A stretch of DNA of 64,000 nucleotides from NCBI GenBank assembly GCA_025059995.1, contig JANXCF010000003.1:1-64000 (forward strand), given 5' to 3'. Every line of letters starts with the position of its first letter. Position 1 is the first letter of the stretch. This DNA comes from Leptospiraceae bacterium (GTDB taxonomy: Bacteria; Spirochaetota; Leptospiria; Leptospirales; Leptonemataceae). Shown one piece after another: positions 1-21,967 of this stretch. The notes below the pieces were generated by a model that was not told the DNA's origin, did not search any database, and worked only from the letters and a program-made list of their open reading frames with translations. The translations under genes were made by a program, and so were the position numbers.

Positions 1-77
1 GTAGGACCATATGATGATGAGAAGTTAGGATTTTACAAAGTAGCAAAGTATTACTACTACCCAGGTTGGTGGGAACC
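1..77 (+). repeat. 77-bp perfect inverted repeat, copy 1
   Basis: Bases 1-77 are the exact reverse complement of 47299-47375. Identity stops at base 78 (g here, t expected). Both copies encode the same stretch of a TRAP solute-binding protein in the same frame. The left end may be cut by the window edge. Confidence 0.95.
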
Positions 78-438
78 GAGTGCGAATTTGAGTTATCTCA
101 TCAATCTCGATGCATGGAAAGAGCTTCCAGAAATCTATCAATCAGTGATCCAAGTAGCAACTACTATAGCAAATCAAGACATGCAAGCAAAGTTTGATTA
201 TCTAAACCCTACTTCTTTAAAAAGAATTTTAGAAAAAGGGGTAGTTTTAAGAAAATTTTCCGATGAAATCCTAAACGAAGCCTATAAGATCACAAAAGAA
301 ATTATGGAAGAAACAGCAAAAGAAAATCCAAGCTACAAAAAAGTATATGAATCATGGAAAAAATTTCAAACCCTTACGAAAGACTGGTTAAAATTGGCTG
401 AACTTACCTTTGAGAGTTTTAATTATCAAAAGAGCTGA
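1..438 (+). CDS. TRAP transporter solute-binding protein (DctP/TakP-like), 3' part only
   Basis: The reading frame is open from base 1, so only the C-terminal ~145 residues are present. They match the C-lobe of the complete TRAP solute-binding protein at 46938-48035: both contain VGPYDDEKLGFYKVAKYYYY and a later LRKFSDEI motif. Such proteins bind carboxylates, often 2-oxo acids in the TakP group, in the periplasm and pass them to a DctQM permease. The first 77 bases equal the 47 kb gene base for base. From base 78 the two diverge to recognisable but clearly different proteins. The end overlaps the convergent folB by 20 bases. No permease gene follows on this strand, so the rest of its operon, if any, lies to the left. 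Confidence 0.85.
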   Translation, partial: VGPYDDEKLGFYKVAKYYYYPGWWEPSANLSYLINLDAWKELPEIYQSVIQVATTIANQDMQAKFDYLNPTSLKRILEKGVVLRKFSDEILNEAYKITKEIMEETAKENPSYKKVYESWKKFQTLTKDWLKLAELTFESFNYQKS

Positions 439-787
439 TTCTTTTTTTGGTGATTTCAATTCCAGTCCTCTTCGCATTAACAATGGCTTTAGGTTTAAAG
501 ACTTGAATCTTAATGCTTTTTAACAAATGGAATTTCTGGAGTAAATGTTCTCCCAAATCATGAGCTAATTTTTCTAGGAGCTTTGGGCTATGATTTTCAC
601 AGAAAGCGAGGATTTCTCGATAGAGTTCTTTATAATTGATTGTGTCAAAGATAGAATCCGAAACAAATGCTTGAGAAAACTCAACCTCGCATTCGATATT
701 AAAAACGACTTCTTGGAACTGGGTTCGCTCTTCTTCTTTTACACCCACTTTCATGATGACACTGAGTTCTTCGATTAAAATTTTCAT
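419..787 (-). CDS. folB: Dihydroneopterin aldolase FolB
   Basis: This 122-residue protein has the FolB length and pattern: a GVKEEERTQFQEV stretch near the N-terminus, the TINY motif in the middle, LLEKLA, and a KPKAIVNA stretch near the C-terminus. FolB splits 7,8-dihydroneopterin to 6-hydroxymethyl-dihydropterin and glycolaldehyde in cytosolic folate synthesis. Its ATG shares one base with the TAA of the upstream pteridine reductase-like gene (TAATG), so the two are probably translationally coupled. The 3' end overlaps the convergent TRAP fragment by 20 bases. Confidence 0.88.
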   Translation of the reverse strand: MKILIEELSVIMKVGVKEEERTQFQEVVFNIECEVEFSQAFVSDSIFDTINYKELYREILAFCENHSPKLLEKLAHDLGEHLLQKFHLLKSIKIQVFKPKAIVNAKRTGIEITKKRISSFDN

Positions 788-1548
788 TATAGGTTTTCTC
801 CACCATCAACAGGAATATTTATACCCGTTAAAAAATCATTTTCGATGATAAATCGAACGGCATGGGTGATATAATCAGGACTACCCGGAAGTCTTAGAGG
901 GATCTTTTTGATGGATTTTTCATAGTAATCAACGGGGTTCCAGCTTTCATTTATGATCCCTTCTTTATTGATTTGGGCAGGGGGTAAAATAGCACCAGGA
1001 GAAATCCCATTCACTCTAACATTAGGAGCTAATTCTTTTGCCAACATATAAGTAAGCTTTTCTAAACAATACTTACTTAATCGATACAAGAAATGATCTG
1101 TTCGATGGAATCTCAAGCTTGCATCCAAAAAGTTAATAACAATCCCCTGATGCTCTTTCTTAAAAAAAACTTTTTTGATAATATAGCTTGGGGTGAAAAA
1201 ATTCACATCAAAAATTTTTCTGTAGTTATCATAATCGAAGTTTTCCCAATTATCGAAATCAGGAAAAATCGATGCACTATTGATGACGATGTGAATCTCT
1301 TCTTTTTCAATGGTTTCGAAAAAACGCTTTCGATCATCTTCTTTTGAGAAATCTGACTGGATCAAATATGAATTGGGATTATAAGCTTGAATAGAAGACA
1401 ATACTTCTTGAGCTTCTTTTTCAGAAGTTCGATAATGAATTATCCATTTTGGCTCAAACTTAGCCAAATCCAAAATGATGCTTTTAGCAATCCGTTTTGC
1501 ACCACCTGTGACTAAGATTGTTTTATTTTTTAGTTCTTCTAGTTTCAT
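787..1548 (-). CDS. SDR pteridine reductase, PTR1/FolM-like
   Basis: A 253-residue short-chain dehydrogenase. The cofactor loop TGGAKRIA (residues 14-21) has the TGxxxRx(G/A) form typical of PTR1/FolM rather than the classical TGxxxGxG. NSAS is at 90-93. The active site reads Asp142, Tyr155, Lys159, with the Asp 13 residues before Tyr as in PTR1, where Asp replaces the usual SDR Ser. The C-terminus has VDGG. Known members reduce dihydropterins or dihydromonapterin with NADPH and can back up dihydrofolate reductase. Coupling to folB supports a pterin role. It overlaps the upstream S41-like gene by 26 bases. The exact substrate is inference. Confidence 0.75.
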   Translation of the reverse strand: MKLEELKNKTILVTGGAKRIAKSIILDLAKFEPKWIIHYRTSEKEAQEVLSSIQAYNPNSYLIQSDFSKEDDRKRFFETIEKEEIHIVINSASIFPDFDNWENFDYDNYRKIFDVNFFTPSYIIKKVFFKKEHQGIVINFLDASLRFHRTDHFLYRLSKYCLEKLTYMLAKELAPNVRVNGISPGAILPPAQINKEGIINESWNPVDYYEKSIKKIPLRLPGSPDYITHAVRFIIENDFLTGINIPVDGGENL

Positions 1549-2785
1549 TTTGCTTTATGAGCTCTAAGATTTTTCTATGATATGGATCATCAAGAGTAGG
1601 TGAATCTGAGGGGGGATAGATGGGAATAAAGTCTTCTATTTCAATCCAATTTTTTTCGTTAGTAGTGGGAATTTCTACATACCCAATCGTGAAGTTAAAA
1701 GCACCATAATTTTCTGTCGGTGATAAAGGGATTTGTTTTCCAATATAGACTGGTATTTCTCTTTTCGGACCTAGGATTGTTGCTTTTGGTGAGTTTTGAA
1801 TCATCTTTGCTAATCCATATGAAAAAGGAGAACTTTTCGTTTGTAGTAAAACAATGATTTTTCCTGTATGAAAGATATCTTCTTTTGTTGTGAAGACTTC
1901 TGGATTTTTTTCTTTGGTGTAGATTTTCATGATTTCTTTTTTAGGAAGAAAGATATCTGAAATCAGAAAAATTTCATGTATATCTCCAGTGGATAAATAC
2001 CTTAAATCCAAAACTATAATGTCAGGTGTGGGGCTATCGAAGAGAATTCGTTTTAATTCCTCACTTGTACCACGAGTTCCAAAGCGGATTTGCAAATACA
2101 GAATATCGGTTTTATCCGGCAATTTCCAAAAGGTTTTTCTTATAGGGATTACTTTTAAGTCAGTTCGTATGAGTTGATATGAAATGCCTTGAATGGTTAA
2201 TTGAAGTGGGGTTTTAGGTTTGCCTCGAATTCTTGCTACGACATCTTCGATTAGAAAATTATCTACGTCCTCACCGTTGATTTGTTGTAAATACTGATTG
2301 GGACGTATTTCTGCTAAATAGGCGGGAGAACCTTCCATCACATCCAAAATAAAAAATTTTCCAATAGATTCTTCATAAAGTATAATGCCAACACCAGATA
2401 GATTTTCCGTTTCTTTCAAACGTTCTATAGTTGAAGGTGTGATGTATAGATTTCTTCCTTTTTTGGTTTTGAGTAATTCATACACAAAATTTTTATAAAA
2501 TGTTTCTGATTGGTTTGCGTCTTTTTGAAAGTTTTTTCGTAGTAATTCGAGGGCATAATCCCGGGCATTGAGGTTTGTGACGTTTTGGTTATTGGGGTCT
2601 ATTTTTTTTACAGCTCTAAAATAATCTTCGTTAATGATTGTATCGGAAAAAAAATAGTGATTTCGAAATTCTTTTTCTAAAGTTTGAAGAAATGCTTCAG
2701 GTTCCAAAAGGGACGTTGTTTTTTCTTTACAATAGACAAAAAAAACGAAAAAAAACAAGCTCAAACTAATTACGACTCTTTGCAT
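1523..2785 (-). CDS. S41 (C-terminal processing) peptidase-like lipoprotein, catalytically degenerate
   Basis: 420 residues. A hydrophobic start ending in FFVYC-KEK (Cys19) looks like a spirochaetal lipobox. A PDZ-like domain (GVGIILYEE to about residue 200) is followed by an S41-like core: [14 protein letters not shown] near 255-268, then [13 protein letters not shown] and ATILGPKRE. In active S41 enzymes this region carries GTASASE and, 25 residues later, a catalytic Lys in FGKG. Aligned without gaps, both positions are proline here (about 320 and 345). It is therefore probably not a working protease, perhaps a binding or scaffolding lipoprotein. It overlaps aroC by 20 bases and the pteridine reductase gene by 26. 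Confidence 0.7.
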
Positions 2786-3956
2786 GTTTTAACCACCATT
2801 TGGGATAGATTGCACGCTGACGAAAATACATATCAATCAATACTAAATTAATCACAGACTCAACAATTGGCACTGCACGAGGTAGGACACATGGATCATG
2901 CCTTCCACCAACAAGCAGGTTTACAGGTTCACCGCTTTCGGAAACAGTCTTTTGGATTTTATGGATGGAAGCTGTGGGTTTGAACGCTAAGCGCATAAGA
3001 ATAGGCATCCCATTAGAAATCCCTCCTTGGATTCCTCCTGAGTGGTTTGTGCGTGTTTGTAAAAGGGGAATGTTTTCGAATCCTTCGATATTTTTGATAT
3101 CTCGATTTTTTTCTATCAGGTCATGTTCGGGTAAATGTTCTTTTCCAGGAACAAAAAAGGAGTCATTATGTTGACTTCCTCGTAATTTTGTGCCAGAAAA
3201 GCCACTTCCACTCTCGAAACCTTTGCAAGCAGGGATACTCAAACAAGCTTTTGCAAACTCAGCATCTAATTTATCAAAAACAGGTTCACCTAATCCAGGA
3301 GGAACATTTCGCACAATCACTCCAATGGTCCCTCCTAAGGAGTCACCTTCTTTTCGAACCTCTTCTATGAGTTTTATCATTTTTTCTGAAGCTTCTTGAT
3401 CAGGACAACGAACGGGTGAGGCATCTACTTCATCTTGGGTTTTTGGTGGATTTTCCATCACTCGGGATTCAATTTCCCCAATGGAATTTACCCAGGCAAT
3501 GGTTTCAATCTCAAGTTCTGATTTTAGAATCTGAGCGGCAATACTTCCTGCAATCACTCGTGCCACAGTCTCTCTTACAGAAGCTCTTCCCCCACCCAAT
3601 GGAGTTCGATAGGCATATTTCGCATGATATGTATAATCAGCATGGGATGGTCGATAAATATCGGCCCATTTTAAGTAGTCTTCAGATTTTATATCAATGT
3701 TTCTCACAATGATGGCTAGGGGTGTGCCCAAGGTCTTGCCTTTGTAAATCCCACTGAGGATTTCGAATTCTTCGGTTTCTTTTCGCTGGGTGGTAAGGCG
3801 ACTTTGTCCCGGTCTTCTTCGTTGGAGTTGATGTCTGACTTTTTCGAAATCAATTTCTATCCCTGCAGGACATCCATCAATTACCACTCCAATTGCCGGA
3901 CCATGAGATTCTCCGAAAGTAGTTACTCGAAATAGTTGATTTGTTGTAGAAGACAT
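2766..3956 (-). CDS. aroC: Chorismate synthase
   Basis: 396 residues, full length. Family signatures are [12 protein letters not shown] at the N-terminus (His of GESHG), [13 protein letters not shown] (about 47-59), [17 protein letters not shown], and [16 protein letters not shown] near the C-terminus. The enzyme removes phosphate from 5-enolpyruvylshikimate-3-phosphate with reduced FMN to give chorismate. It is the first gene of a minus-strand run (aroC, S41-like, pteridine reductase, folB). Chorismate also feeds folate via p-aminobenzoate, which links it loosely to folB. aroE lies at 38.8 kb. Confidence 0.97.
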
Positions 3957-4086
3957 CTACTTCCATAAGTAGAAAAGATTTTTTTGTGTCAATAATTAGA
4001 GAAGTTTTACGGAATTCGAAAAAAACAAAATCACTTGCCATGAAACAAAAACGAAAAATTTTGACTTGCGAAGTGGAGTAAATTCT

Positions 4087-4398
4087 ATGTTTGCGGTGAT
4101 TGAACTCAAGGGCAAGCAGCACATTATCCAAAAAGATCAAGTCTTTGTGAGTGAACTAACGGGTAAAAGTGAAGGAGAAGAATTCGAGATTGATTCGGTT
4201 TTATTAGTCAACAAAGACAATGAAGTAAAAATCGGCACCCCTTATGTGGAAGGAGCAAAAGTAAAGTTAAAAGTAATCAAAAATTTCCGTGGACCAAAAA
4301 TCCGAGGCTTTGTTTACAAAAGAAAAACGGGTTATGCAAAAAGATGGGGACATAGACAAAATTTACAAAAGCTTCAAGTGATTGATATTCTTGTTTAA
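4087..4398 (+). CDS. rplU: Ribosomal protein bL21
   Basis: From the ATG at 4087 the product is 103 residues (MFAVIELKGKQHIIQKDQVF), the normal L21 length. The C-terminal part (RGFVYKRKTGYAKRWGHRQ) is typical of the RNA-binding end. An upstream ATG at 4066 would add seven residues, but the 4087 start has a GGAG Shine-Dalgarno 8-11 bases ahead and matches the family. First gene of rplU-prp-rpmA-obgE-proB, divergent from aroC. Confidence 0.97.
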   Translation: MFAVIELKGKQHIIQKDQVFVSELTGKSEGEEFEIDSVLLVNKDNEVKIGTPYVEGAKVKLKVIKNFRGPKIRGFVYKRKTGYAKRWGHRQNLQKLQVIDILV

Positions 4399-4403
4399 TT
4401 GGT

Positions 4404-4724
4404 TTGATTGAAGTTCTTATTTCTTTCGATACGGCTGAAAGAATCAAAGAAATACAAATTACAGGTCATGCTCCTATAGAAGAAAGTTATAGTTTGGAAT
4501 GTGCAGTCGTTTCTACGATTGTAGAGATACTTTCTTTAGAACTCAAGGAATTTGGAAATGACTTCAACGAAATAAAAGAAAAGGGCTTATGGAGGGTGGC
4601 TTTCCCTGAGAATTCAGAACTTCAATCGAACTTAAAAAGAATTTTGTTTGCTAAACTACTTTTGTTAAAAAAATTAAGTCAAAGTCATTCAGATACTGTA
4701 AATCTAAAAATCAAAGAGGAGTGA
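4404..4724 (+). CDS. prp: Ribosomal-processing cysteine protease Prp (YsxB family)
   Basis: 106 residues from a TTG start five bases after rplU. GHAP near residue 24 holds the family His, and LECAVVSTI near residue 32 holds the nucleophile Cys. Prp cuts an N-terminal extension from L27 in Firmicutes and relatives, and the gene sits between rplU and rpmA as in those genomes. Here the L27 encoded just downstream has no extension: a TGA, Prp's own stop, stands in frame two codons before its ATG. The present role is therefore unclear. Confidence 0.8.
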
Positions 4725-4727
4725 ACA

Positions 4728-6072
<1,345 letters not shown>

Positions 6073-6073
<1 letters not shown>

Positions 6074-7188
6074 TGAACCGAAGTGCATTTCTATCAGAAT
6101 GGGATCAAATCAAAAGGATTGTGATCAAGATTGGCTCCAACTTGATTGTGGATCCAAACACTGAGCAAATTCAATTCGACTTATTAAATCATCTGATTGA
6201 TGAAATTTTGTTTTTACGAAACCAACAGAAAGAAGTAATCCTTGTAAGTAGCGGTGCCATTGCTTTGGGGAAAAAGAAAATTAAAACTTTAATCCAAAAT
6301 GATTCTTATCAAAATCCATCTGTCATAAAAAAGCAAGCCTTAGCATCCATTGGACAGATCGAATTGATGAAATTTTATCAGAACTTATTTGATGAGAAAA
6401 AAATTTTGATTTCGCAGATATTAATCACCGCAAAAGATTTTCGGGATCGGGAAACCTATCTTAACATTGGACATACCTTACAAGAGATCTTAAAATTAAA
6501 TGTCCTTCCCGTAATCAATGAAAACGATACTGTATCAACAGATGAAATCAAATTTGGTGATAATGATTTTTTGTCTGCGGCGGTTGCGGCTTTATTGAAC
6601 TCTCAGCTTTTGATTTTACTGACCTCTGTAGAAGGTTTTTTAATCAATAACCAAAGGGTTTCGTTTTTGGACAAAATTGATTCTGAAATCATCAAGCATG
6701 CAAAAGGACCACAAGGTTTTGGTAGTGGTGGGATGTATTCAAAAATCAAGGTTGGTAAGTTATGCCAACAAGCGGGACTACATCTGGCTATTCTTCCAGG
6801 TAAAGAAAAACATGTTTTGAGAAGATTCTATCAAGGAGATGATATTGGGACCTTGATATATTCTACAAAAAGATTTTTAAGAGCTCGAAAAAAATGGCTT
6901 TTGTTTTCTCGTTCCAAAGGGGCTATCATTGTCGATGAAGGAGCTGAGAAGGCTTTACGCTATAAGAATTCGTCCCTTCTGTGGGCTGGCATCAAAAACA
7001 TCGAAGGAAGCTTTACTTATGGCGATGTTGTAGAAATCAAAAATCAAAAGCAAGAAATTTTAGGACGAGGCATCATTAACATACCTTCACGCATCTTAAG
7101 AAATAGATTGAATCATGAACAATATCCTTTAAAAGAGTTCTTTCCCTTTGAGGTGATTCATCGTGATGATTTAATTTTAGAAGATTAA
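6073..7188 (+). CDS. proB: Glutamate 5-kinase
   Basis: 371 residues: an amino-acid kinase domain (VIKIGSNLI, SSGAIALGK, VINENDTVSTDE, FGDNDFLSA) and a C-terminal PUA domain from about residue 280. It phosphorylates glutamate in the first step of proline synthesis. It overlaps obgE by one base (TAATG). The next step, proA, often adjacent, does not follow; two minus-strand tRNA genes do. Confidence 0.95.
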
Positions 7189-7190
7189 GT

Positions 7191-7275
7191 TGCCCGGGGC
7201 GGGACTTGAACCCGCACGGGCTTTTGGCCCCCAGGATTTTAAGTCCTGTATGTCTACCTGTTCCATCACCCGGGC
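7191..7275 (-). tRNA. tRNA-Leu (anticodon UAA)
   Basis: Read on the minus strand, the acceptor stem GCCCGGG pairs with CCCGGGC and the discriminator is A. The anticodon stem-loop is CAGGACTTAAAATCCTG with anticodon TAA. A class II long variable arm (GGGGGCCAAAAGCCC) and a T arm with GGTTCAAGTCC follow. Length is 85 nt. The CCA end is not encoded. Confidence 0.95.
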
Positions 7276-7279
7276 GTTG

Positions 7280-7351
7280 AGGCGTCGGTGGGATTCGAAC
7301 CCACGATCGGGCTTTTGCAGAGCCCTGCCTTAGCCCCTTGGCCACGACGCC
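7280..7351 (-). tRNA. tRNA-Cys (anticodon GCA)
   Basis: On the minus strand, GGCGTCG pairs with CGACGCC and the discriminator is U, the main identity base of cysteine tRNA. The anticodon arm GGGCTCTGCAAAAGCCC gives anticodon GCA. The T loop is GGTTCGAATCC. Length is 72 nt. It lies four bases upstream of tRNA-Leu, likely in one transcript. CCA is not encoded. Confidence 0.96.
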
Positions 7352-7412
7352 ATGATTTTTCTCAAAAATCTATCATCAAGTAGAATCCGAATATGAAAAT
7401 TTAACTTTCATG

Positions 7413-8462
7413 TCAAGTCATTTTATTGATCCTCCAGCTTGAGGCTTTTCTTAACCGATCATTGATGGCAAAACCAAGACCTCGATTTTCCACATTAAAG
7501 GCAACAATACCATCAAAGTTTTTTTCTAAATCATGTAGTGTTCGATATAGATTTTTCGCTATCTCAAATAAGTTTTCGTTGTGTGAAAGATGAAAGACAC
7601 TATCATGATGTGGAAAATTTCCATATACAATAAAAGCCATTTTTTGTTTTTCTTGTAAAAAATTTCGTAGGGTTTCTTTTTCTGGGAGAACCTTATTTTT
7701 AGTAATGATTTCATCTAATAATTGTGAATAATCTATGATTGAAACTTTACGAAAATCATCGAGAAATTCTTTAGATAGTAAGATCAAAGGAATTTTGGGA
7801 AGGTAATGTTTTTCTAAAAGTCCTGGAGAGTGTAAGGTTTCACCTCCTTTTTTTTGATTTGAAACAATAACTTCATAACCGAGTGATTCAAAATCCTCTT
7901 TTGTAAAGATGCCTGGACGAAGAATTTCAATTGTGCTTTCATCACGAAATAAAACCACGGTCGATTCTATTCCCACATGACAAATCCCTCCATCCACTAC
8001 ATCTACTTTTTCTTGAAAGTAATCCCTGACCATTTCGGCACTGATTGGACTAAGTTTCGTAAAGGGATTGGCAGAAGGAGCGGCAATGGGCTTTTCAACA
8101 GAACGAAGGATTTCTAAAGCAATGGGATGATCAGGAATACGAAATCCACAATAGGGTGAACCTCCCGTAACTATCTCGGGGATCGTCGTTTTTTTTGGGA
8201 AAAGAATCGTCAAAGGACCTGGCCAAAATTTAAATAAAGGTTCATGGTAGTCTTTTAAAAAGACATATTCATCGAGCTGGTTCGGAGAACTAATATGACA
8301 GATTAAAGGGTTGTTTAAGGGTCTTTTTTTTAGTTCAAAGATTTTTCTTACCGCATTTTCGTTCGTTGCCAGTGCGGCAAGACCATAAACCGTTTCTGTA
8401 GGGATTGCTACAACTTCGCCTTGTTTTAGTTTTTCTACAGCTTCTTCAATAGAAATGATCAT
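7413..8462 (-). CDS. L-threonylcarbamoyladenylate synthase (Sua5/TsaC)
   Basis: 349 residues. The N-terminal YrdC domain is clear (GEVVAIPTETVYGLAALA, ELKKRPLNNPL, APSANPFTKLSPISAE). A Sua5 C-terminal domain starts near residue 230 after the SPGLLEKHYLPKIP linker. The enzyme makes threonylcarbamoyl-AMP for the t6A37 modification of ANN-decoding tRNAs. Its transferase partner TsaD is at 55.1 kb. The ATG overlaps the stop of the upstream M16 peptidase gene by four bases, so the two are cotranscribed. Confidence 0.93.
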   Translation of the reverse strand: MIISIEEAVEKLKQGEVVAIPTETVYGLAALATNENAVRKIFELKKRPLNNPLICHISSPNQLDEYVFLKDYHEPLFKFWPGPLTILFPKKTTIPEIVTGGSPYCGFRIPDHPIALEILRSVEKPIAAPSANPFTKLSPISAEMVRDYFQEKVDVVDGGICHVGIESTVVLFRDESTIEILRPGIFTKEDFESLGYEVIVSNQKKGGETLHSPGLLEKHYLPKIPLILLSKEFLDDFRKVSIIDYSQLLDEIITKNKVLPEKETLRNFLQEKQKMAFIVYGNFPHHDSVFHLSHNENLFEIAKNLYRTLHDLEKNFDGIVAFNVENRGLGFAINDRLRKASSWRINKMT

Positions 8463-9781
8463 TTCTTAGGAAGTAGTTTCGCTATAAGAGGTTTTTCTGA
8501 AAAGGTTTTTTGGGCTATCTCTAAAACATCTTCTTTTGTGATGGCTTCTATTTCTTCTATCAAAGTTTCTACAGGGTTTCGATAATCATCTTGTAACATA
8601 CTTTGTAGTAAATAACCGCTTAGTCCTTTGATAGTTTCAATCGAGGACCAAATCTGAGTTTTGATAGTATTTTTTGCGATCATGAAAAGATCATCACTAA
8701 TATACTCATTCATAAGGGATTGGAGTATTAACTGGACCTCCTCTTTTAGTTTTTCGATTTGTTTGGGATCAATACCTGCAAAGATTTCCAAAATAGAAAA
8801 GGACTGATTTCGCAAAATGCTCGAGTAAATTTCATAGCAAGATAAACCCAATTCTTCTCGAACTCGGACATACAAAAGCGAAGAATCCATACCACCCAAA
8901 ATATAATTCATAAAATTCTGCTTGATTCTGTCCTTGTGTTTATACGGAAGAGCAGGAAAAAGCATAAGAAAATACCCTTCTTGAATTCCTTTTTTCTGTA
9001 AGAGGAGTTCTTGTGGTCGATATTGTGCTTTTGGATAGGAAGGTTTTTTGGAGGTTGGCAAATCTTTAAATAATAATTCTACTTCTTTTAGAAATGACTC
9101 AACATCAATATCCCCAACAATAGTAATAAAAGTATTCACCTTTCCGTAGTATTTTGTTTTGAATTGTATCAAATCTTCTCGTTGAACTTCTTTTATATTT
9201 TTTTCTGTCCCTAAAATGGGATGATACTCGGAAAGAAAGTGCTTCATGGATTCTTCGAAAAGATATTGGGTAGGGTCGTCTTCTGCTTCTCGGTATTCAC
9301 TTAAAATAGGCTGAATTTCTTTTTGGAGTTCATTTGCAGGAATCAAAGGATTCACATACATATCTGAAATAATGGGAAAGCCTTTGTGAAAGTTTTCTTT
9401 CAAAATTGAAAGAAAATAATTTGTATGATCATAATCAGTATATGCATTCAAATGTGCACCTAATTTGTTGTAGGAGTGGATAAACTCAATGCTATTAGGA
9501 TAATGTTTGGTTCCTTTAAATAGCATGTGTTCTAATATATGGCTATAACCCCATTCATTTGGTTTTTCAACTTGTGAGCCTGTTCTATTGACAATTTGCA
9601 AATAAACGAGACTTCCGCTTTTAGGGATAAAACCAATATGAATATCGTTTACTTTGAAGTGAATGGGTTCAAAGGATTTGAGCTCAGTAGATTTTTGAAA
9701 ATGAAAGATCTCTTTTTTTAATTTTGTTTTGAATTTTCCTTTCTTTAGGGATTGGGATTGGGAAGGGGATTTTTTTTTCAT
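8459..9781 (-). CDS. M16 family zinc metallopeptidase
   Basis: About 440 residues in one M16 unit. The inverted zinc motif HxxEH appears as HILEHMLFKGT (about residues 81-85), with the third ligand Glu expected in SEYREAEDDP. Second-half landmarks include NYILGGMDSSLLYVRVREELGLSCYEI. Single-unit M16B enzymes usually act as dimers on short peptides. The ATG at 9781 is preferred; a TTG three codons upstream (9790) is possible. No signal peptide is evident, so it is probably cytosolic. Coupled to sua5. Confidence 0.88.
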   Translation of the reverse strand: MKKKSPSQSQSLKKGKFKTKLKKEIFHFQKSTELKSFEPIHFKVNDIHIGFIPKSGSLVYLQIVNRTGSQVEKPNEWGYSHILEHMLFKGTKHYPNSIEFIHSYNKLGAHLNAYTDYDHTNYFLSILKENFHKGFPIISDMYVNPLIPANELQKEIQPILSEYREAEDDPTQYLFEESMKHFLSEYHPILGTEKNIKEVQREDLIQFKTKYYGKVNTFITIVGDIDVESFLKEVELLFKDLPTSKKPSYPKAQYRPQELLLQKKGIQEGYFLMLFPALPYKHKDRIKQNFMNYILGGMDSSLLYVRVREELGLSCYEIYSSILRNQSFSILEIFAGIDPKQIEKLKEEVQLILQSLMNEYISDDLFMIAKNTIKTQIWSSIETIKGLSGYLLQSMLQDDYRNPVETLIEEIEAITKEDVLEIAQKTFSEKPLIAKLLPKK

Positions 9782-9833
9782 GATATCCAAACTATCTTAA
9801 GTTAATTATTAGACATTCTCTTTTCGTTAACAA

Positions 9834-10841
9834 TCAAAAGAAATACGTCAATACCCGATTTCGATAAATGTCGAAAAACAAATCCATGTAATATGTATGA
9901 AATTGAAAGTCCATGATAAAGCCATTGTGTCCACCTTTATCCGTAATGTACAAATGAATATTGGGAATATCTTTAAAGAACTGAAAGTCTTCAACGGGAA
10001 TGATAGGATCGTCTTTGGATGTGAGGATGTAAATAGGAATACTTAAATTTTCGTAGGAAAAGTTTGTTAATGTATATTTCGCAAAATATTCTTCTACGGA
10101 TTTGTATTTGGTGTATTTTAAGATACCTTTTTCTGTGAGTTCCATCAAAGAATCAATTTTGAGAAGTGGCTGAAAATGGTAAAGGTAAGGGAAGTAGTAT
10201 TCTTTAAGTTTTAAAGATTGTTTCCATTTACTAAGAAAATAGGATTTATAGATTTTATCTTCATCAATCACCATAGTGGATTTTTTTGGATCTATAGCAG
10301 GGGATACAGCAAACACAAATTCTAGGCGACCATTTTCTTGTCTTTTTTGTTTTTTTCTTTGGCTATAAAGTAGAGCAAATCGAATAGCGAAATTCCCTCC
10401 CAAAGAAAAACCAATAATAAACGTTGGTAGGGAGTAGCGATTCATGATTTGCATGATGGCATCATAGACTTCTTCAATCAGAGTTCCCATGAAAAGCCCT
10501 TCATTTAAGTGATGGGTGTTTCCATGATCGCGGAAATTAAGCCGAAAGACATGGAATCCATTCGTGATAAGAAAGTTCCCCATTCTCAAAATATAAGAAG
10601 AATCACTACTTCCTTCCCAGCCATGTAGTAGTATCACAATCCCTTTTACTCTTTGTTTTGTGGTCGACGGAGTGAAGTATCCCAAAAGTCTGGTATTATC
10701 TTTCGTTATAATTAGTTCGATTTTGGAAAGTTGACTTAAAAACTTTGCTTGATTTCCAAACTTTAAAGAAGAAAGACTGGTTTGCAAGAAATTGTTCTGC
10801 AACATCTTGGGGATTTTATAGTAGATTTCGTGAGTCACCAT
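9834..10841 (-). CDS. Alpha/beta hydrolase, YheT-like
   Basis: About 335 residues. LLHGWEGSSDSSY is the oxyanion region, GFSLGGN holds the nucleophile Ser, TSKDDPIIP the acid and DKGGHNGF the His, so the triad is complete. The layout fits the YheT/COG0429 esterase-like group, whose substrates are poorly known. An ATG at 10841 is the likely start; a TTG at 10850 would add three residues. The upstream 85 bases are very AT-rich with no clear promoter. Confidence 0.8.
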   Translation of the reverse strand: MVTHEIYYKIPKMLQNNFLQTSLSSLKFGNQAKFLSQLSKIELIITKDNTRLLGYFTPSTTKQRVKGIVILLHGWEGSSDSSYILRMGNFLITNGFHVFRLNFRDHGNTHHLNEGLFMGTLIEEVYDAIMQIMNRYSLPTFIIGFSLGGNFAIRFALLYSQRKKQKRQENGRLEFVFAVSPAIDPKKSTMVIDEDKIYKSYFLSKWKQSLKLKEYYFPYLYHFQPLLKIDSLMELTEKGILKYTKYKSVEEYFAKYTLTNFSYENLSIPIYILTSKDDPIIPVEDFQFFKDIPNIHLYITDKGGHNGFIMDFQFHTYYMDLFFDIYRNRVLTYFF

Positions 10842-10936
10842 GATAATCAATCGTAAAATAAAAGATTAAATGTCAATTATAAAAATTTTAAAGTTTTGCA
10901 ATTTTTAAAAAATAAAATTCATATAAATCACTCTCA

Positions 10937-11980
10937 CTAAAAATGAAAATTCCACATAAATCCCAAAGTCTGTTCATTTTTTGTATTTTTTGTTTCCAAA
11001 ATATCGACAAAAAATAAAGTAAGAAACAAGAAAGAAAAACCCAAAGTGGATCCAAATCGTATTTGATCTTGGTTGTAGTTTTTTATGAGCTTTCTTGCAT
11101 TTAAGCTTTCATAGATTAAATAATTTCTAATAAAAGGGTTATTAGTTGTTCGGTTAACAAAAATCAAGTAATCTAACAGAGATAAGTTATTTTTGTTTAA
11201 AAATAAAGACGGTCGTTGAATCTTCTCGTAGTCCTTTAATTTTTGGTATTGAAAGCCAACTGCTGCGAGGGACAATAAAAAACCATATTTGATAAAGTAT
11301 CCTTTGTCTTTTTTTCCTTCTTCAATGAGAATTTGACCAGGGACGGTTCTACGAATTCTTCTTTCTAATTCGACTACTTTTGGTGAGACTTTAGGTATTT
11401 CTTGAAAGTCAGTTATTTGTTTGATTTTGATCAAAGAAAGGGCAGGGATAGTGGTGAATTTTTTTTCTGAGTTTTGAATGACTATTTCATAATTCTTTGC
11501 TAAGAGCTCTTTAGTAGGGATTTCGATGAAAAGATTTTCGCCATTAAATTCATATTCTAAAGGTTTTTTCTCTAAACCTTCTCGTAAGAAAATTTTGGCA
11601 TCATTTGTGATTCCCGAAACCTTCATTCTAAATTTTTGGGTGTCATCATCAAAATCGGTTAGTGTTTCAATACTTTCAACTTTTGGTGTGGGAATATAGA
11701 TGATTTCAAATTCCTTCCATTCTGTGTAATAAAAAACTTCATTTTTTTGGTTAAGAAGTCCAAGACGTTTTTTATATCTTCCTGGTTTGATTTCTACAGT
11801 AGCTTCCGTTCCTTCAATTTCTTTTGTTAGTAATATTTTTTCTTCAAGATCTGCAATCTCTAATCGATATTTTCTTACATTTTGCACCGCTGCCCATCTT
11901 TCGGTGTAAAATATGGTTTGTTCTTGGGACTGTAATTTTATTGTGATAAAAACAAGAAAAAAAACAATCAAGACTCTCAT
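10937..11980 (-). CDS. Exported/membrane protein of unknown function in the FecR-cyclase operon
   Basis: 347 residues. An N-terminal signal peptide (VLIVFFLVFITIKLQSQ, cleavage near 19) leads to a beta-rich region to about residue 200. Then come two hydrophobic stretches, YGFLLSLAAVGF near 230 and GFSFLFLTLFFVDIL near 320, which may anchor it. I do not recognise the family. The start overlaps the stop of the FecR-domain gene by four bases (ATGA), so the two products are likely made together. A periplasmic partner of the FecR protein is a reasonable guess only. Confidence 0.7.
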   Translation of the reverse strand: MRVLIVFFLVFITIKLQSQEQTIFYTERWAAVQNVRKYRLEIADLEEKILLTKEIEGTEATVEIKPGRYKKRLGLLNQKNEVFYYTEWKEFEIIYIPTPKVESIETLTDFDDDTQKFRMKVSGITNDAKIFLREGLEKKPLEYEFNGENLFIEIPTKELLAKNYEIVIQNSEKKFTTIPALSLIKIKQITDFQEIPKVSPKVVELERRIRRTVPGQILIEEGKKDKGYFIKYGFLLSLAAVGFQYQKLKDYEKIQRPSLFLNKNNLSLLDYLIFVNRTTNNPFIRNYLIYESLNARKLIKNYNQDQIRFGSTLGFSFLFLTLFFVDILETKNTKNEQTLGFMWNFHF

Positions 11981-14070
11981 TCAATTACGATTCGTTCTGG
12001 TGTTAAAAATTCAGGTTTGGATTGAATTTGGTATTCTAAAACAAATCTTACACCCACTTCGTTCGTTGGTATAATTCGTTCTTGGATTTTGCGAACCCCT
12101 TTTACACGAAAATCGTATACTCCAATTCCGAAATCCTCTAAGTTTGTGAGGACCACTTGATTTTGATTGGTTCGGTTCTTCAAGATAGGAGTTCCAGCTT
12201 TGAGTAATTCGTATTCATAGTAATCAACGTGCTTCGCTCTTTCCCATTGGATTGAAATTTGATTTACGGACAGAAGATTAAAGGTTTCGTTATTTTTTGG
12301 AATTATGATTCTTGTGGGTTTAGGTAGAAAATACATAAAAAACTTGGATGATTGGGTGTCTAAAACATCATTTGTATTTAATTTTCGTATATCTACTCTC
12401 CAGAAGTATTCTCCTTCTGAGTTCAATAGATTTGATGGTACAAGGAATTCTTCTTTTAGGGTTTTATTTGTTAAAAGAGGCTTTTGAAAGTTGGGTTCTT
12501 TTGCTAAAGAAACTATAAACTCTACTTCTCTTAGTTCATAGGACCATTTCAGGGGAATTTCTTTTGCATCCTCAAAAAGAAAAAGTTCGTTATTTCTGGG
12601 GAAGCTCAAAGTCAATCTGGGAGTTTCGATGACAAAAAAGGTTCCCACGTCAGAAGGGATTTTATCTTCGTTTATGATTCGCCAGTAATAGGTTCCAGTA
12701 GGAAATTCTCTTTTTACATCAAATGTGGAAACGGTGATATTACTTTGTTCGAATAATATTTCATTAAATTTGGAATCTTTGGCAATTTGGATTGTTTGTT
12801 TATTGGGTGAATCAACCCACCATTTGAAGACATAATTTTTCGTTTTTGTATGAAGAAAATATTCGTTTAAAGGGGAAATCAATTTTGCTGGTTTGAATTT
12901 TTCAAGTTCTTGGATTTGGAAAGATTGTACATCTGAAGTTTCTGTCAATTCTTCTAAGACACCTAAAGCAATAACTTTCCAATAGTAAGTTTGAGTTTGA
13001 ACGTCAATTGGGACATTCACATTGTTAACAAACGTCGAAATCCTTTTGGGATTTGTAAAATTTGGATTAGTATCAATCAAGAGTTCATAGCCTTTTGCTA
13101 ATTCCAATTTTGACCAAGAGAAATTTATATTCAACTCGGTTTTGGTTTTGAAAATTTCTAAGTTTTTTGGTGTGAAGAGCTGAGGTTTTTCTTTTTGGAA
13201 AACAACGAATTTTCTATAAGGAAATAGCGTGTGATCTTGATTTTTCTCGACGATCTTCCAGTAGTATGTGCCAGGCTTAAGTTGGATTTGGGCAATTCTT
13301 TTTATAGGGATTTTGATTAAAGTTGGACGAAACATGGAATTCATAGAAACCCAGAGCTCGTAATTTATTTCAGGATCACCTTGGTATTCAAACTCAATTA
13401 CTTTATCTTTCGTGGTTGTGAAGAATCGTTCATCCTCTAAGGGTTTTATCAAGTTTAGCTTCATTTTGGTTTTTACGATTTTATCTTCGGTTTTTTGAGC
13501 GATTAAGACTTCATCTTTTTTGATTTCTTCTTTTTTTCCTTCTTTGATAAATTCGGCTTTTCCTTGTTGTAGTTGGATGTTTACACTTTCTTTGGTGTTG
13601 GTGATTTTCGCCTCCGCTGATTTTAAATCGATTTCCGAATCTCCGGTTTTGACTTTCACGTTGGTTTCTGCAGTTTTCGTTTCTAAGCTCCCGTAATTAA
13701 AATCGATCTTGGTTTCTTCTTTTGTGAAATTGATCACGATGAAAGAGTTTTCATTTAGGGCAATTTCAGTTCCGTCTTTAAGTTTCAAAACAGCTTCTGA
13801 AAACTCTTCTGTTTTGATGGAGTCTCCGTTATACACGGGATATTCATTTTGGAGTAATTCCCAAAGATTTTGGGTTTGAAGTTTTCTCAGAGCTGTCCTC
13901 TTTTTGAAAACAATCTTCCCGATTGGCTCTTCCTCAACAACATAAGTGGCATAAATATCTTTGTATAGTAGATAACTCAGAATTCCTATGATCAAAAAAG
14001 CTATAACAAAGAAAATATAATCCTTTTTACTTGGTTTGAATTTGATGTAATAGGGTGCTTTGGAGGTCAT
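11977..14070 (-). CDS. FecR-domain membrane protein with repeated beta-sandwich modules
   Basis: 697 residues. One TM helix (about 18-37) puts the rest outside the inner membrane. A FecR domain at about 50-200 (WELLQNEYPVYNGDSIKTEE, AVLKLKDGTEIALNENS, LETKTAETNVKVKTGDSEID) is followed by about five Ig/Fn3-like repeats marked by a (T/E)Y(Y/F)W(K/R) strand. Proteins of this kind in Leptospira-type genomes are usually uncharacterised. It overlaps both neighbours by four bases, between a membrane cyclase and an exported protein. No sigma factor gene is near, so it is not a classical FecIR pair. Confidence 0.75.
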   Translation of the reverse strand: MTSKAPYYIKFKPSKKDYIFFVIAFLIIGILSYLLYKDIYATYVVEEEPIGKIVFKKRTALRKLQTQNLWELLQNEYPVYNGDSIKTEEFSEAVLKLKDGTEIALNENSFIVINFTKEETKIDFNYGSLETKTAETNVKVKTGDSEIDLKSAEAKITNTKESVNIQLQQGKAEFIKEGKKEEIKKDEVLIAQKTEDKIVKTKMKLNLIKPLEDERFFTTTKDKVIEFEYQGDPEINYELWVSMNSMFRPTLIKIPIKRIAQIQLKPGTYYWKIVEKNQDHTLFPYRKFVVFQKEKPQLFTPKNLEIFKTKTELNINFSWSKLELAKGYELLIDTNPNFTNPKRISTFVNNVNVPIDVQTQTYYWKVIALGVLEELTETSDVQSFQIQELEKFKPAKLISPLNEYFLHTKTKNYVFKWWVDSPNKQTIQIAKDSKFNEILFEQSNITVSTFDVKREFPTGTYYWRIINEDKIPSDVGTFFVIETPRLTLSFPRNNELFLFEDAKEIPLKWSYELREVEFIVSLAKEPNFQKPLLTNKTLKEEFLVPSNLLNSEGEYFWRVDIRKLNTNDVLDTQSSKFFMYFLPKPTRIIIPKNNETFNLLSVNQISIQWERAKHVDYYEYELLKAGTPILKNRTNQNQVVLTNLEDFGIGVYDFRVKGVRKIQERIIPTNEVGVRFVLEYQIQSKPEFLTPERIVIE

Positions 14071-16655
14071 TTTTTATCTTTTGATGATTTTGATTTGTCT
14101 AAAATTTCGAATTTTTCTTCTTTATCGTCTTCGAGGACACTTTGATCCTCTGTTATCTGTGGTTTCCAATGGATACCTGCTATTTGTCGTAATTCTTCTA
14201 AGGTTTTCGGAGCCGTGGGATCATCTTTTCTTCCCAAAACACAGTAAATGGTTTGAGGTTCATCTTTCCCCTTTACTTTGATGGCGGGCATCTTTATAAC
14301 GTTGAAAATGTCTTTTACTCTTTCATAAGCATCTTGGGATATTAAGATATCCGTTGCAAAGGGTTTGTTGAGTCCTTCAATTCGGCTTGCTAAGTTAACT
14401 GCATCTCCAATTACAGTGAATTCTAAACGTTTCTCGGAACCAATTTGACCGGAAATCACTTCTCCAGTATTGATACCACATCCAAAGTTAACCACAGGAA
14501 GATTGTGTTCTTTGTTGTATTTATTGAACTCAATTAGGGCTTTTCTCATCATGAGTGCGGCATTAATGGCATTTTCGGTATCATTTCCTTCTGTATAGAC
14601 GGCACCCCATGTTGCCATGATGGCATCCCCAATGAATTTGTCTACAATGCCATGAGTTTTTTCTACACAATCAACCATCAGAGTGAAATAGCGATTTAAG
14701 TATTCCACAACCTCTTCTGGTTTCATTTTCTCAGACATCGCAGTAAATCCCCGAAGATCGGAAAAAAAGATAGTGCAAACTTTTTTCTCTCCACCTAATT
14801 GGATTTCACCTCTCAGAGCTTTTTCAGCTATTTCTTTATTAACGAATCTTCCGAAAGCATCTTTCATTCGCTCACGTTCTTCAAGCCCCTTCACCATTTT
14901 GTTGAAGGAATAAGCCACTAATCCCACCTCGTCTTTGCTTCTTGGAACTACACGAACAGAATAGTCTTCTTCTTCAACTCGACCAGTTGCGAATGCAAGT
15001 TCCTTCAAGGGTATGGAAATATTATTCGCAAAAAAGTATACAATTACCACACTCAAAACCAAGACAATCCCTAAAATGTATAGGTTTCTTCTTTGAGTGG
15101 CAAAAACTTGTTGAAAAGCAATATCCGACTCCGTAATAGAAACAATCCCCATACCTCCAACAGCAAGTTTTTTAAAAGCGCCTATATATTCCTTACCACC
15201 AAAAGGGAAAGTATATAACCCATTATCCACTGTGCTCTTTTGCATAGTTTGGATGATGGGCAGATCCTGAACATTAGCTTGAAGTAGAGTGATATTTATG
15301 TCTGAATGTATCAACAGCTCTGAATAACGATTCACCAATAAAGTTTGACTTCCCACTTGGGAAGGAAAGTCATTGATGATTTTTCTTGCGTTTAAAAAAA
15401 TCAAAGCATACGTATTAGGTTCAAACTTGATGGGGGCTATCATTAACAACACAGGTTTATTTAAAACTTTTGAAACATTGAATAAATTAAAAGTATTCGT
15501 TAAGGATTGTTGGATTTTCTCATTGTAGATAGAAATCAAACCCTCAAAATCCTCACGAATTAAGGCATCAGCTTGCATTAAGTTGTAATTATTCAACCAT
15601 TTTTGTATGGTAAAATTTATATCTTGGGCTTTCAAAATGGCAATCGAATAAATATAAGGGTTTTCGAAAGTAAAAAGATCAATGTAGGTTTCATTTGACT
15701 TCATGTGGTTTTGATAGATGAATTCACTTGTGATGTAGATTTGGTTGACTAAGTCTTCTAATTTCTGCCCCAAAATTTGAACCAAATTGCTATTATTCGT
15801 TTGGATTTGAGTTTCTATATCTCTTTTGAAAAAGTAAGAGGCAATAAAAATCATCAAAGAAAGCGATAGAGTTACTAACACACTAATAATTCCTAATAGT
15901 TTAATTCGAATCGTAAATTTTGATAGTTTAAACCCTTCCTTTCCAGAAGTAGAGAAATCAATATTTTTGATTATTTGAATATTTTCTTTTTTTTCTTTTG
16001 TAGTGTGTATTTCTTTTTGCTCCATTTTTGGTTTTTCATTTAGAGTATTTGTGTTATTTTTGTTTTCATTGATTTTTATTTCTGTTTCTTTCAGATGTTT
16101 TGTTGTTTCGTTTGTTGTTGGGTCAGTTTTTTCTAATTTTTCTATGGTCTCTAAATCTTTTTGACTTTCATTTACTTGTTCGAATTCTAATTGAGTGGTT
16201 TGAGGGGTGTTTTTAGTTTCAGTTTCCTTGTTTTTGATTCGTGTGATTTCTTCTAAAATTTCCTGCTCAAGATTTAAAAATCTTCCGTCATCGTGAAAGG
16301 GGTCATGAGAAAATTTCTTTTCAAAGATTTTTTTTAATTGCTCCGACTCTTTTGAGAAAATAAGTATAGTTCGTTCATTTTCTTTTAGATACTCAAAGAT
16401 TTTATCTTGATGAGCCAAAAGATTACGCTCTAACAACACAACTACTTGGATATTGTTTTGGATGCAATGTATGGCATATTTTTCATAATCTTGGTTGAAT
16501 TTCGGGACTATAAGTATGATTTTTCGAATATCATTTTTTTTTGTTTTTTCACAAAAAGTTCGTATGATATCTTGATTTGACGAAGAAAAAATTTCTTCAA
16601 TCTCAGTTTTTGTAATATAAACTTTGTAATGGATGTTTTTTGGAAGTATTCTCAT
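14067..16655 (-). CDS. Membrane class III adenylate/guanylate cyclase with HAMP and an unusual N-terminal domain
   Basis: 862 residues. An alpha/beta-looking cytosolic domain covers 1-135, and a Lys/Glu/Thr/Asn low-complexity linker about 136-245. TM1 is at 252-276, an extracytoplasmic sensor at 277-525 and TM2 at 526-544. HAMP follows at 545-600 and the class III catalytic domain at about 620-805. Metal Asp residues are D633 (FSDLRGF) and D677 (FIGDAIMATWG); N754 and R758 of VNLASR stabilise the transition state. The EKRLEFTVIGD region favours ATP, giving cAMP, but this is inference. All catalytic residues look intact. First gene of a three-gene coupled operon. Confidence 0.88.
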   Translation of the reverse strand: MRILPKNIHYKVYITKTEIEEIFSSSNQDIIRTFCEKTKKNDIRKIILIVPKFNQDYEKYAIHCIQNNIQVVVLLERNLLAHQDKIFEYLKENERTILIFSKESEQLKKIFEKKFSHDPFHDDGRFLNLEQEILEEITRIKNKETETKNTPQTTQLEFEQVNESQKDLETIEKLEKTDPTTNETTKHLKETEIKINENKNNTNTLNEKPKMEQKEIHTTKEKKENIQIIKNIDFSTSGKEGFKLSKFTIRIKLLGIISVLVTLSLSLMIFIASYFFKRDIETQIQTNNSNLVQILGQKLEDLVNQIYITSEFIYQNHMKSNETYIDLFTFENPYIYSIAILKAQDINFTIQKWLNNYNLMQADALIREDFEGLISIYNEKIQQSLTNTFNLFNVSKVLNKPVLLMIAPIKFEPNTYALIFLNARKIINDFPSQVGSQTLLVNRYSELLIHSDINITLLQANVQDLPIIQTMQKSTVDNGLYTFPFGGKEYIGAFKKLAVGGMGIVSITESDIAFQQVFATQRRNLYILGIVLVLSVVIVYFFANNISIPLKELAFATGRVEEEDYSVRVVPRSKDEVGLVAYSFNKMVKGLEERERMKDAFGRFVNKEIAEKALRGEIQLGGEKKVCTIFFSDLRGFTAMSEKMKPEEVVEYLNRYFTLMVDCVEKTHGIVDKFIGDAIMATWGAVYTEGNDTENAINAALMMRKALIEFNKYNKEHNLPVVNFGCGINTGEVISGQIGSEKRLEFTVIGDAVNLASRIEGLNKPFATDILISQDAYERVKDIFNVIKMPAIKVKGKDEPQTIYCVLGRKDDPTAPKTLEELRQIAGIHWKPQITEDQSVLEDDKEEKFEILDKSKSSKDKK

Positions 16656-16741
16656 TTCTCAGTATATATAAAAACTTATCGATTTTATAAGCAATCTTTT
16701 TTAAAAATAAAAATTCAAAAAAATTACTTTTAGTTCTCACT

Positions 16742-16759
16742 TAATACAAGTAATACAAG
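16742..16759. repeat. Tandem 9-bp repeat in the cyclase/typA divergent promoter region
   Basis: TAATACAAG occurs twice in direct succession, within the AT-rich 141-bp gap between the cyclase (minus) and typA (plus). It could be part of an operator, or chance in AT-rich DNA. Confidence 0.6.
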
Positions 16760-16817
16760 TAAAGATTTAATTGCTTATTTAAAGCAAAAAAAAACTTTGG
16801 ATAAAAAAATCGTAAAT

Positions 16818-18701
16818 ATGATTGCTCAAACACCTTTAGTTAGCATAAGAAACGTAGCCATCATTGCTCACGTTGATCATGGAAAAACCACATTGGTAGA
16901 TGGGCTTCTAAAAGCTTCAGGTCAAATAAAAAAAACAGAAGAAGAAAGGATTTTAGATAATTTAGAGCTGGAAAAAGAAAAAGGTATCACCATCAAAGCT
17001 AAGAATGCATCGATTTATTATAAAAATCATAAAATCAATATCATCGATACTCCAGGGCATTCGGATTTTGGTGGTGAAGTAGAAAGAGTTTTAGGGATGG
17101 CGGATGGAAGTCTTCTTTTAGTCGATGCAGTTGAAGGTCCCATGCCTCAAACACGTTTTGTTTTAGCCAAGAGTTTAAAGTTAGGACATCGCCCAATCGT
17201 AGTCATAAATAAAATCGATCGAGAATTTGCTAATCCTACAAAAGTATTGAATGACATTTTTGACCTTTTCGATGAGTTAGGTGCTACGTCAGAGCAGTTG
17301 GATTTTCCTGTGATATATGCCTCAGCAAAGTTGCAATATGCCACAAAAGAACTCAAACTTTTTGGAATAGAACTTCAAAAAGAACTCCAAAAATCAAACG
17401 AAACACCCACTCTTGCTCCAATTTTGGATTTAATCATTGAGCATTTTCCCAATGCCTATTCCGAGGAAAAAGTGAAAATGCCTCTACAACTACAAATCCG
17501 AAATTTGGATTACGATGACTACGTAGGAAGGGTTGGTGTAGGAAGGATCTTTCAGGGGAAAATTAAAAAAGGCGATATTGTCGATCTTGTCAAAAACGAA
17601 ACCAATCAAATCATACGGGGGAAAATCACCAAAATTTTCGGTTTCGATGGTTTAACAAAAATAGAACTCAATGAAGCTCACACAGGGGATGTCGTGGGAA
17701 TTGCAGGATTTGAAGAAGTCAAGATAGGAGACACCCTTTGTGAAATCGATAAAATCATACCAGGACCTCGAATTGAAATCGAAGAACCCACAGTTTCTAT
17801 GTTTTTTTTGGTTAATGATTCACCGTTTTCAGGAAAAGAAGGAAGGTTTGTTACAACTCGACAATTGCGGGAAAGACTCTTCAAAGAAACCTTGATTAAT
17901 TTCTCAATTCGTGTCTATGAAGATGAAGAAAAAAAAGATCGTTTCGAAGTTCAAGGTCGAGGTGACCTACAACTTGCAATCTTGGCGGAGACTCTGCGAA
18001 GAGAGGGATATGAACTTCAACTTTCCAAACCCGAAGTCATTCTAAAAACTGATCCCACTACTCAAAAAAAATTAGAGCCTTACGAAATCGTCGTAATAGA
18101 TGTTCCAGAAATTTATAGTGGAAATATTATTCAAGAACTAAATCGTCGAAAAGGCATCATGCAGTCCTTTGAAACCTTTTCTCATGGAACCTGTCGGATT
18201 GTGTATTTAGCTCCTACCAGAAGTTTATTTGGTTTTCGTAGTTTTGTTCTGACAGAGAGTAAAGGAACAGCGGCTTTTACATCACGATTTTCCCATTATG
18301 ATACTTTTTTGGGTAGTATTTCGAATCGCATTAATGGAACTTTGGTTTCTATGGTGGATGGGATAGCAGTAGCTTATGCTTTGTGGCAACTTCAGGAAAG
18401 AGGAAGGATTTTCATCGAACCTGGAACTGCTGTTTACAAAGGAATGATTATAGGAGAACATTCAAGAGAAGGAGACTTAGACGTAAATCCAACAAAAGAA
18501 AAAAAATTAACTAATGTTCGAGCAAGTGGTTCTGATGAAGCCATTCGCCTCATCCCACCCATTAAAATGAACCTCGAACAAGCCATTGAATTCATAGAGG
18601 AAGACGAACTTGTTGAAGTCACTCCTCTCAATATTCGTCTTAGGAAAAAATATCTAGATCCCACAGAAAGAAAAAAGATGTCAAAACTTTTAGTGCGTTA
18701 A
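16818..18701 (+). CDS. typA: Translational GTPase TypA/BipA
   Basis: About 627 residues from the ATG at 16818. A TTG at 16797 would add seven residues, and neither start has a clear Shine-Dalgarno. The G domain has [25 protein letters not shown] and NKIDRE. Then come EF-G-like domains II, III and V and the BipA C-terminal domain. EF-G domain IV is absent, as expected for BipA. It binds the ribosome and helps 50S assembly and stress adaptation. It is followed after three bases by an RsbW-like kinase gene. Confidence 0.95.
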
Positions 18702-18704
18702 AAG

Positions 18705-19187
18705 ATGAGTGATAATATTGATAATGTTGTAAAAGAAACTCCCATCATTGCCAAAGGATTTGATTATGAGACTTCAAAAAAAACAGACAAAAAAATCCGG
18801 ATGCAGATAGTTTCCACTCCAAGTTTGTTGAAGCCATTTCGAAATTTTGTTTATGAAGTTTCTGTGAGTTTTGGTATCAAAAAAGAAATTGCGTTCGATT
18901 TAAAATTAATTTCAAATGAAGTCGTTTCAAACATTATCAAGCACGCATATCGATTTGAGTTAGGATGGATTTTCTTTGAGTTTTTATTCCATCGAACTTA
19001 TGTGGAGCTCCGATTTCGTGATTTTGGTAAATATAGTGTTCAGCCGACAGATTTTGTAATGAAAGATTTGTCTGATATTCGAGATAGAGGAATAGGTTTG
19101 TATTTGATTTCAAATATTTCTGATTATTATTACATAAAGAATTCAGAAGAGATGGGGAATTTATTTATAGTCAAAAAGAGGATTTAA
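18705..19187 (+). CDS. RsbW-like anti-sigma/serine kinase (HATPase_c)
   Basis: 160 residues. The GHKL ATPase N-box is NEVVSNIIKHAY, followed by RDFGK (G1) and DRGIGLYLI (G2). The fold and size match RsbW/SpoIIAB-type kinases that bind sigma factors or phosphorylate anti-anti-sigma proteins. No partner sigma or STAS gene is visible nearby, so the target is unknown. It lies between typA (three-base gap) and the lipoate ligase gene (directly abutting). Confidence 0.82.
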   Translation: MSDNIDNVVKETPIIAKGFDYETSKKTDKKIRMQIVSTPSLLKPFRNFVYEVSVSFGIKKEIAFDLKLISNEVVSNIIKHAYRFELGWIFFEFLFHRTYVELRFRDFGKYSVQPTDFVMKDLSDIRDRGIGLYLISNISDYYYIKNSEEMGNLFIVKKRI

Positions 19188-20027
19188 ATGATTATACACA
19201 TCCCTGACTTAAAAACCCGTAATCCGATCATTTCTATTGCATTAGAAGAATCATTGGCCTTTTATTATAGTAAAGTTGAAGATTTTACGGCACTTCTTCG
19301 ATTTTGGTTTAATCCTCCAAGCATTATTTTAGGGAGAAGTTGTAAAGTTTTGGAAAACATAAATAGTGAAGTTTTAATCGCTTTACACAATAAACAAAAG
19401 AAGTTTTTAAAAGATAAAAATATATGTTTGGTTCGAAGACTATCAGGGGGTGGAACTGTTTATCATACCTACGGGAATTTGAACTACACTTTTATAATTC
19501 CTTTGAAGAAATATCCTGAATTCTTTTCTATACCTAATTCTTATAACATCATATTGAATTTTCTCATCAAAGCATTGAAAAAGCAAAATATAGAAGCTCT
19601 AATTCAAGGGCTTTCGGATTTAGTAATAGAAACCAAAGAAGGCTATAAAAAGTTCTCAGGTAATTCCCAGTTTCGAAAATACCATATGTTGGTTCATCAT
19701 GGGACGTTGATTTTACAAAAAAATGTGATAGAAGAAGTCCAAAAAATACTAAAACATCCACCTAAAGAACCAGACTATCGGATGAAGCGAAGTCATGAGG
19801 ATTTTTTGACTACACTACCCAAAGAATTCGATATTTCTCTTTTTTATGAAAGCCTTTTAGAACAACTTCAAGACTACTTCCAGCAGGATCAAATCCGATT
19901 TGTTAATTATTCAGAATCAAAAGAACTAAGAAAAATACTCATAGATAAGGTAAAAAATGTATATTCTAGTTCAGAATGGATATATCAAGGAAAGTATACT
20001 CAAAAAGAAATTATTTTAGATTTTTGA
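19188..20027 (+). CDS. Lipoate-protein ligase / lipoyl transferase (LplA/LipM-like)
   Basis: 279 residues. RRLSGGGTVYHTYGNLNYTF (about 84-103) is the lipoate/biotin ligase core. KFSGNSQF then supplies the catalytic Lys region, and VHHGTLIL follows. The family attaches lipoate or octanoate to E2 subunits and the glycine cleavage H protein. There is no obvious C-terminal accessory domain, so it may be LipM-like or need a separate partner. Its ATG follows the kinase stop directly. The downstream glyA makes a glycine/one-carbon link plausible. Confidence 0.82.
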   Translation: MIIHIPDLKTRNPIISIALEESLAFYYSKVEDFTALLRFWFNPPSIILGRSCKVLENINSEVLIALHNKQKKFLKDKNICLVRRLSGGGTVYHTYGNLNYTFIIPLKKYPEFFSIPNSYNIILNFLIKALKKQNIEALIQGLSDLVIETKEGYKKFSGNSQFRKYHMLVHHGTLILQKNVIEEVQKILKHPPKEPDYRMKRSHEDFLTTLPKEFDISLFYESLLEQLQDYFQQDQIRFVNYSESKELRKILIDKVKNVYSSSEWIYQGKYTQKEIILDF

Positions 20028-20048
20028 TGATTTGGAGGTAAGAATAAA

Positions 20049-21305: not shown

Positions 21306-21335
21306 AAAATAATTTTTCGTGAACCGATATGAAGA

Positions 21336-21363
21336 TTGACAAGAGAAAGAAGTTATCTATAGA
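21336..21363 (+). promoter_or_regulatory. Candidate sigma-70 promoter of infC
   Basis: TTGACA (21336-21341) and TATAGA (21358-21363) are separated by 16 bases. The -10 ends only nine bases before the infC ATG, so a transcript from here would have almost no leader and would lose the GAGAGG Shine-Dalgarno-like stretch. It may therefore be coincidental. Confidence 0.4.
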
Positions 21364-21372
21364 GAGGTTAGG

Positions 21373-21915: not shown

Positions 21916-21967
21916 GATTGCAACCTAAAGCTTGAAAAAAAATTAGTTAAATAGCAAAGGAATTTGT

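Follow-up and report, generated by a model that had tools for sequence, protein, structure and literature searches.

The dctP genes at the contig start

The stretch of DNA analysed here (the window) comprises the first 64,000 nucleotides of a 420-kb contig, C3 (G000:C3:1-64000), from a genome assembled as 17 contigs with a total of 2.38 Mb. It holds a complete dctP gene, copy A, which is followed on the minus strand by genes for the small and large permeases of a TRAP transporter, and it opens within the 3' part of a second dctP gene, copy B, lying in the opposite orientation (Table 1). Copy A contains the DctP domain (PF03480, E 7e-72) and is similar over its full length to the ketoacid-binding protein 7ug8 and to 2hzk/2hzl (E 1e-124 or better); 2hzk is the TakP structure. 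The full-length match, the WVGPYDDEKLGF motif and the succession of dctQ and dctM behind the gene are all shared with the TakP-type TRAP solute-binding proteins, and on these sequence features A and B are predicted to be ordinary TakP-like TRAP ketoacid-binding proteins. Copy A differs in one respect, in that a lipobox-like cysteine found in B and in all six copies of the congeneric genomes considered below is absent from its head (window 47946-48035, minus strand).

Table 1. Features of the window that bear on the two dctP copies
Feature	Position	Strand	Remarks
Shared-tract end, C3 side	1..77	+	exact to 47299-47375 reversed
dctP copy B, 3' part, 145 codons + stop	1..438	+	PF03480 C-terminal match; 5' part = C4 1-280 (minus)
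Segment between the inverted dctP copies, 46.5 kb	439..46937	.	orientation relative to flanks ambiguous
dctM, large TRAP permease	45032..46345	-	TIGR00786, 365 bits
dctQ, small TRAP permease	46342..46917	-	weak YiaM match; position conserved in G1, G2, G3, G13, G14
dctP copy A, 365 aa, TRAP ketoacid-binding protein (predicted)	46938..48035	-	a-type head, b-type remainder
Inferred 573-bp tract common to A and B	47299..47871	-	in B: 47299-47375 and 47765-47871 seen; 47376-47764 in gap
107 bp exact to C4 bases 1-107	47765..47871	+	
Nucleotidyltransferase, cca-like	48119..49480	+	adjoins copy A head, as beside copy a in congeners; cca name by inspection

An earlier note on this DNA had reported that the reverse complement of 47299-47375 reappears as bases 1-77 and that the identity then stops at once. 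Both observations hold: the match is without a single mismatch, and at base 78 identity falls to about 71% across the rest of the gene. Base 1 is the end of the contig, which the note had asked to be checked. The match is the sole exact direct or inverted repeat of at least 20 bp within the window, and the further dctP copies carrying the same bases that the note had proposed to look for were not found in the genome, where the 77 bases occur at these two places only. A second match involves another contig, C4. Its bases 1-107 agree at every position with window 47765-47871, which falls within the 5' part of copy A, and its bases 1-280 encode, on the minus strand, the first 93 residues of copy B. 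The genome contains exactly three dctP pieces, namely A as a whole, the tail of B at C3:1 and the head of B at C4:1. Since C4 carries the head and C3 the tail of B, C4 (reversed) and C3 abut, with copy B split between them. If B is colinear with A, 389 bp of it (equivalent to 47376-47764) would lie in the assembly gap between the two contigs, and the sum of 280+389+438 = 1107 nt gives 369 codons, in frame. Base 1 is best read as an assembly break inside copy B, with the missing 5' part of the gene beginning C4.

In 2000 column-shuffled versions of the A/B alignment the longest exact run did not exceed 31 bp and none reached the observed 77 or 107 bp, so that chance is excluded as the source of the identity. 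The two copies, inverted and 46.5 kb apart, would share a tract of about 573 bp in their central part, its identity over the 389 bp of B in the gap being inferred from the two visible ends. This tract corresponds to residues 56-245 and covers most of the binding core, and 2-oxoacids of one kind are therefore probably the ligands of both A and B.

Some features of the assembly itself were also noted. Six contigs of 510-1111 bases (C12-C17) are wholly masked as N and could hide the middle of B. C1 and C3 measure exactly 483000 and 420000 bases, which suggests trimming or editing and not natural assembly ends; the opposite end of C3 (419542-420000; L024 19542-20000) lies inside a 23S rRNA gene, at model positions 2471-2925.

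The central tract in congeneric genomes

Three congeneric genomes, G1, G2 and G3, have two dctP copies each, denoted a and b, which are arranged in tandem as cca-a-b-dctQ-dctM in G1 and G2 and are dispersed in G3. In G1, exact runs of 350 and 180 bp common to both copies fall in the central region that corresponds to the A/B tract, and the copies differ at 3 of 82 four-fold degenerate sites in the tract but at 8 of 27 in the tail; for comparison, 38 of 73 four-fold sites in the tract differ between G1_a and G2_a. The copies of G2 display the same homogenisation in weaker form (15/74 four-fold differences in the tract), and those of G3 are not homogenised, their longest exact run being 29 bp. 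Between A and B there is no difference in the 184 bp visible, and A differs from the congeneric copies at 46-49 of 68-76 four-fold sites. In the tract, the paralogues A and B are closer to each other than are congeneric orthologues, synonymous sites included. Central homogenisation of dctP has thus occurred independently within the genus. Two further observations were made in G1. Its dctP pair (L122 7519-10104) has a second homogenised stretch near the 3' end, a 125-bp exact run apart from the central one. The intergenic sequence upstream of G1_b (L122 ~8840-8990), between the tandem copies, is G+C-rich and repetitive-looking (CGGGTGGGA..., CGACGACAAC), at odds with the A+T-rich genome.

That purifying selection on the ligand-binding core could by itself yield the identity is scarcely credible: the protein segment is indeed conserved even in TakP, but not one synonymous difference is seen in 184 bp, while in the tract some half of the four-fold sites, or more, are different in orthologues from other species. 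Intragenomic gene conversion is well supported as the origin of the A/B tract, and is its best explanation because the congeners show the same central homogenisation. RecA-type recombination between the paralogues would have homogenised the tract, with the signal peptide or head and the C-terminal tail remaining diverged. Gene conversion between paralogues is an event of a known kind. As in the concerted evolution described for bacterial paralogues (PMC6053082), two paralogues of one genome resemble each other more than orthologues of different species do, and the tracts have sharp edges; the dctP genes depart from those cases in being homogenised at the gene centre only, with both ends diverged. 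That prokaryote survey names concerted evolution of partial sequences as worth future study, and our literature search for gene conversion in TRAP dctP found no paper.

It could also be supposed that B received two separate short conversion patches, of 77 and 107 bp, around a diverged middle. The middle of B lies in the assembly gap, and the a/b pair of G2 is itself a patchwork with runs of 76, 67, 62 and 59 bp, both of which would suit such patches. We nevertheless consider them unlikely, as reads normally reach across repeats of 77-107 bp and a continuous long repeat better accounts for breaks on both sides.

Origin of the contig break

For the 77-bp match the earlier note had put forward gene conversion and, as the alternative, a contig ending at a branch of the assembly graph. 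Both seem to apply, and they are not mutually exclusive. The more specific suggestion that 77 is the k of the assembler fared less well. A break at a graph branch predicts an equal overlap of k bases on both sides of one repeat. Each of the 22 contig ends that could be read was compared with the other contigs and with distant positions, and besides C3:1 and C4:1 none of the other 20 overlaps another contig; C11 shows no more than an imperfect local repeat of its end, about 1 kb further into that contig. With overlaps of 77 and 107 on the two sides of the same repeat and none at the other ends, a plain k = 77 signature is unsupported. It is accordingly very improbable that the contig simply begins with the 77 bases common to a graph branch, even though 77 is a common k and base 1 a contig end; a graph branch would in any case still require the 77-mer to be present in two contexts, so that the shared sequence would need explaining all the same. 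In its published settings MEGAHIT uses a k series of 27-127 in steps of 10, and both 77 and 107 fall within this series, which offers only a lead.

The best explanation is that the contig breaks off at base 1 because of a real tract, probably a converted one: a tract of about 573 bp would have been too long for the assembler, and B would have been cut as a result. A contig break can in this way mark a real, biologically made repeat.

Head and tail types and the 46.5-kb segment

In trees of the tail region A falls among the b copies and B among the a copies (AU p 0.996, with the other groupings below 0.005). Trees of the head region place A beside a and B beside b (AU p 0.993, with the other groupings below 0.01), from a short alignment of 24 columns with two clean diagnostic residues, in which KH/SH p is 0.051 for one disfavoured tree. 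Synteny follows the same division, the head of A adjoining the cca-like gene as that of a does in G1 and G2, and its tail leading into dctQ-dctM as that of b. In G1, G2 and G3 the head and tail types stay together in each copy. As assembled, and as far as these sequence groupings indicate, A (a-head and b-tail) and B (b-head and a-tail) form a pair of reciprocal mosaics, with the joins lying in the tract. Simple pairwise conversion, one of the possibilities first raised for this locus, is thus an incomplete description, as the head and tail types of A and B are exchanged as well.

Given the inverted arrangement of A and B, a crossover within the tract would invert the 46.5-kb segment between them, and would yield the exchanged heads and tails as assembled. 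We lean slightly towards this exchange having occurred in the cell and not in the assembler. It is a serious possibility, at somewhat less than even odds, that the assembler switched copies inside a real shared tract, the centre of a having been converted by b, and drew the 46.5-kb segment backwards. The true genes would then be aa (on the cca side, on to folB) and bb (on the desaturase side, on to dctQ-dctM). Such a mis-join leaves the parental heads and tails intact, as they are in the three congeners, and needs conversion alone. Genes with a b-head have a GGAGAGA-like ribosome site in common and B has GGAGAGA, and the a-head/b-tail join of A crosses the very repeat at which the assembler failed elsewhere. 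The cumulative GC skew of C4 (reversed) plus C3 likewise permits it, having one peak whichever orientation is chosen (at 44.0 kb as assembled, at 26.0 kb inside C4 if flipped). However, graph assemblers usually break at unresolved repeats and do not join across them, and read pairs may have supported the join in A. The order of genes in the congeners keeps only the cca-dctP, dctPQM and aroC-folB blocks, the rest being too shuffled to fix the orientation of the segment. The skew maximum suggests that the replication terminus is near window ~44-48 kb, beside the dctPQM operon; a search for a dif site gave no convincing match.

An exchange in the cell would resemble the inversions that arise by homologous recombination between inverted repeats (PMC9584773, PMC7478630), in that a segment close to the skew switch lies between identical tracts in inverted orientation and has reciprocal mosaics at both ends. 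Unlike in those systems, the repeats would be a converted tract in protein-coding paralogues and not rRNA genes or IS elements, and the inversion itself is a proposed one. We regard it as quite improbable that the inverted copies form a recombinational switch with both orientations coexisting in the population. Were this so, each flip of the 46.5-kb terminus-proximal segment would change the head that drives dctP-dctQ-dctM, the choice being between the lipoprotein-like b-head and the cysteine-less a-head, both heads having a promoter and a ribosome site of their own.

We assign a probability of roughly 0.8 to the account as a whole, comprising a break within B, a shared converted tract and an exchange of heads and tails. 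In the deposited assembly, copy A may be chimeric, made up of parts from two transporter genes. For the genus, the comparisons point to repeated homogenisation, in the duplicated binding proteins of these spirochaetes, of the ligand-binding core alone, which would leave the ends free to diverge.
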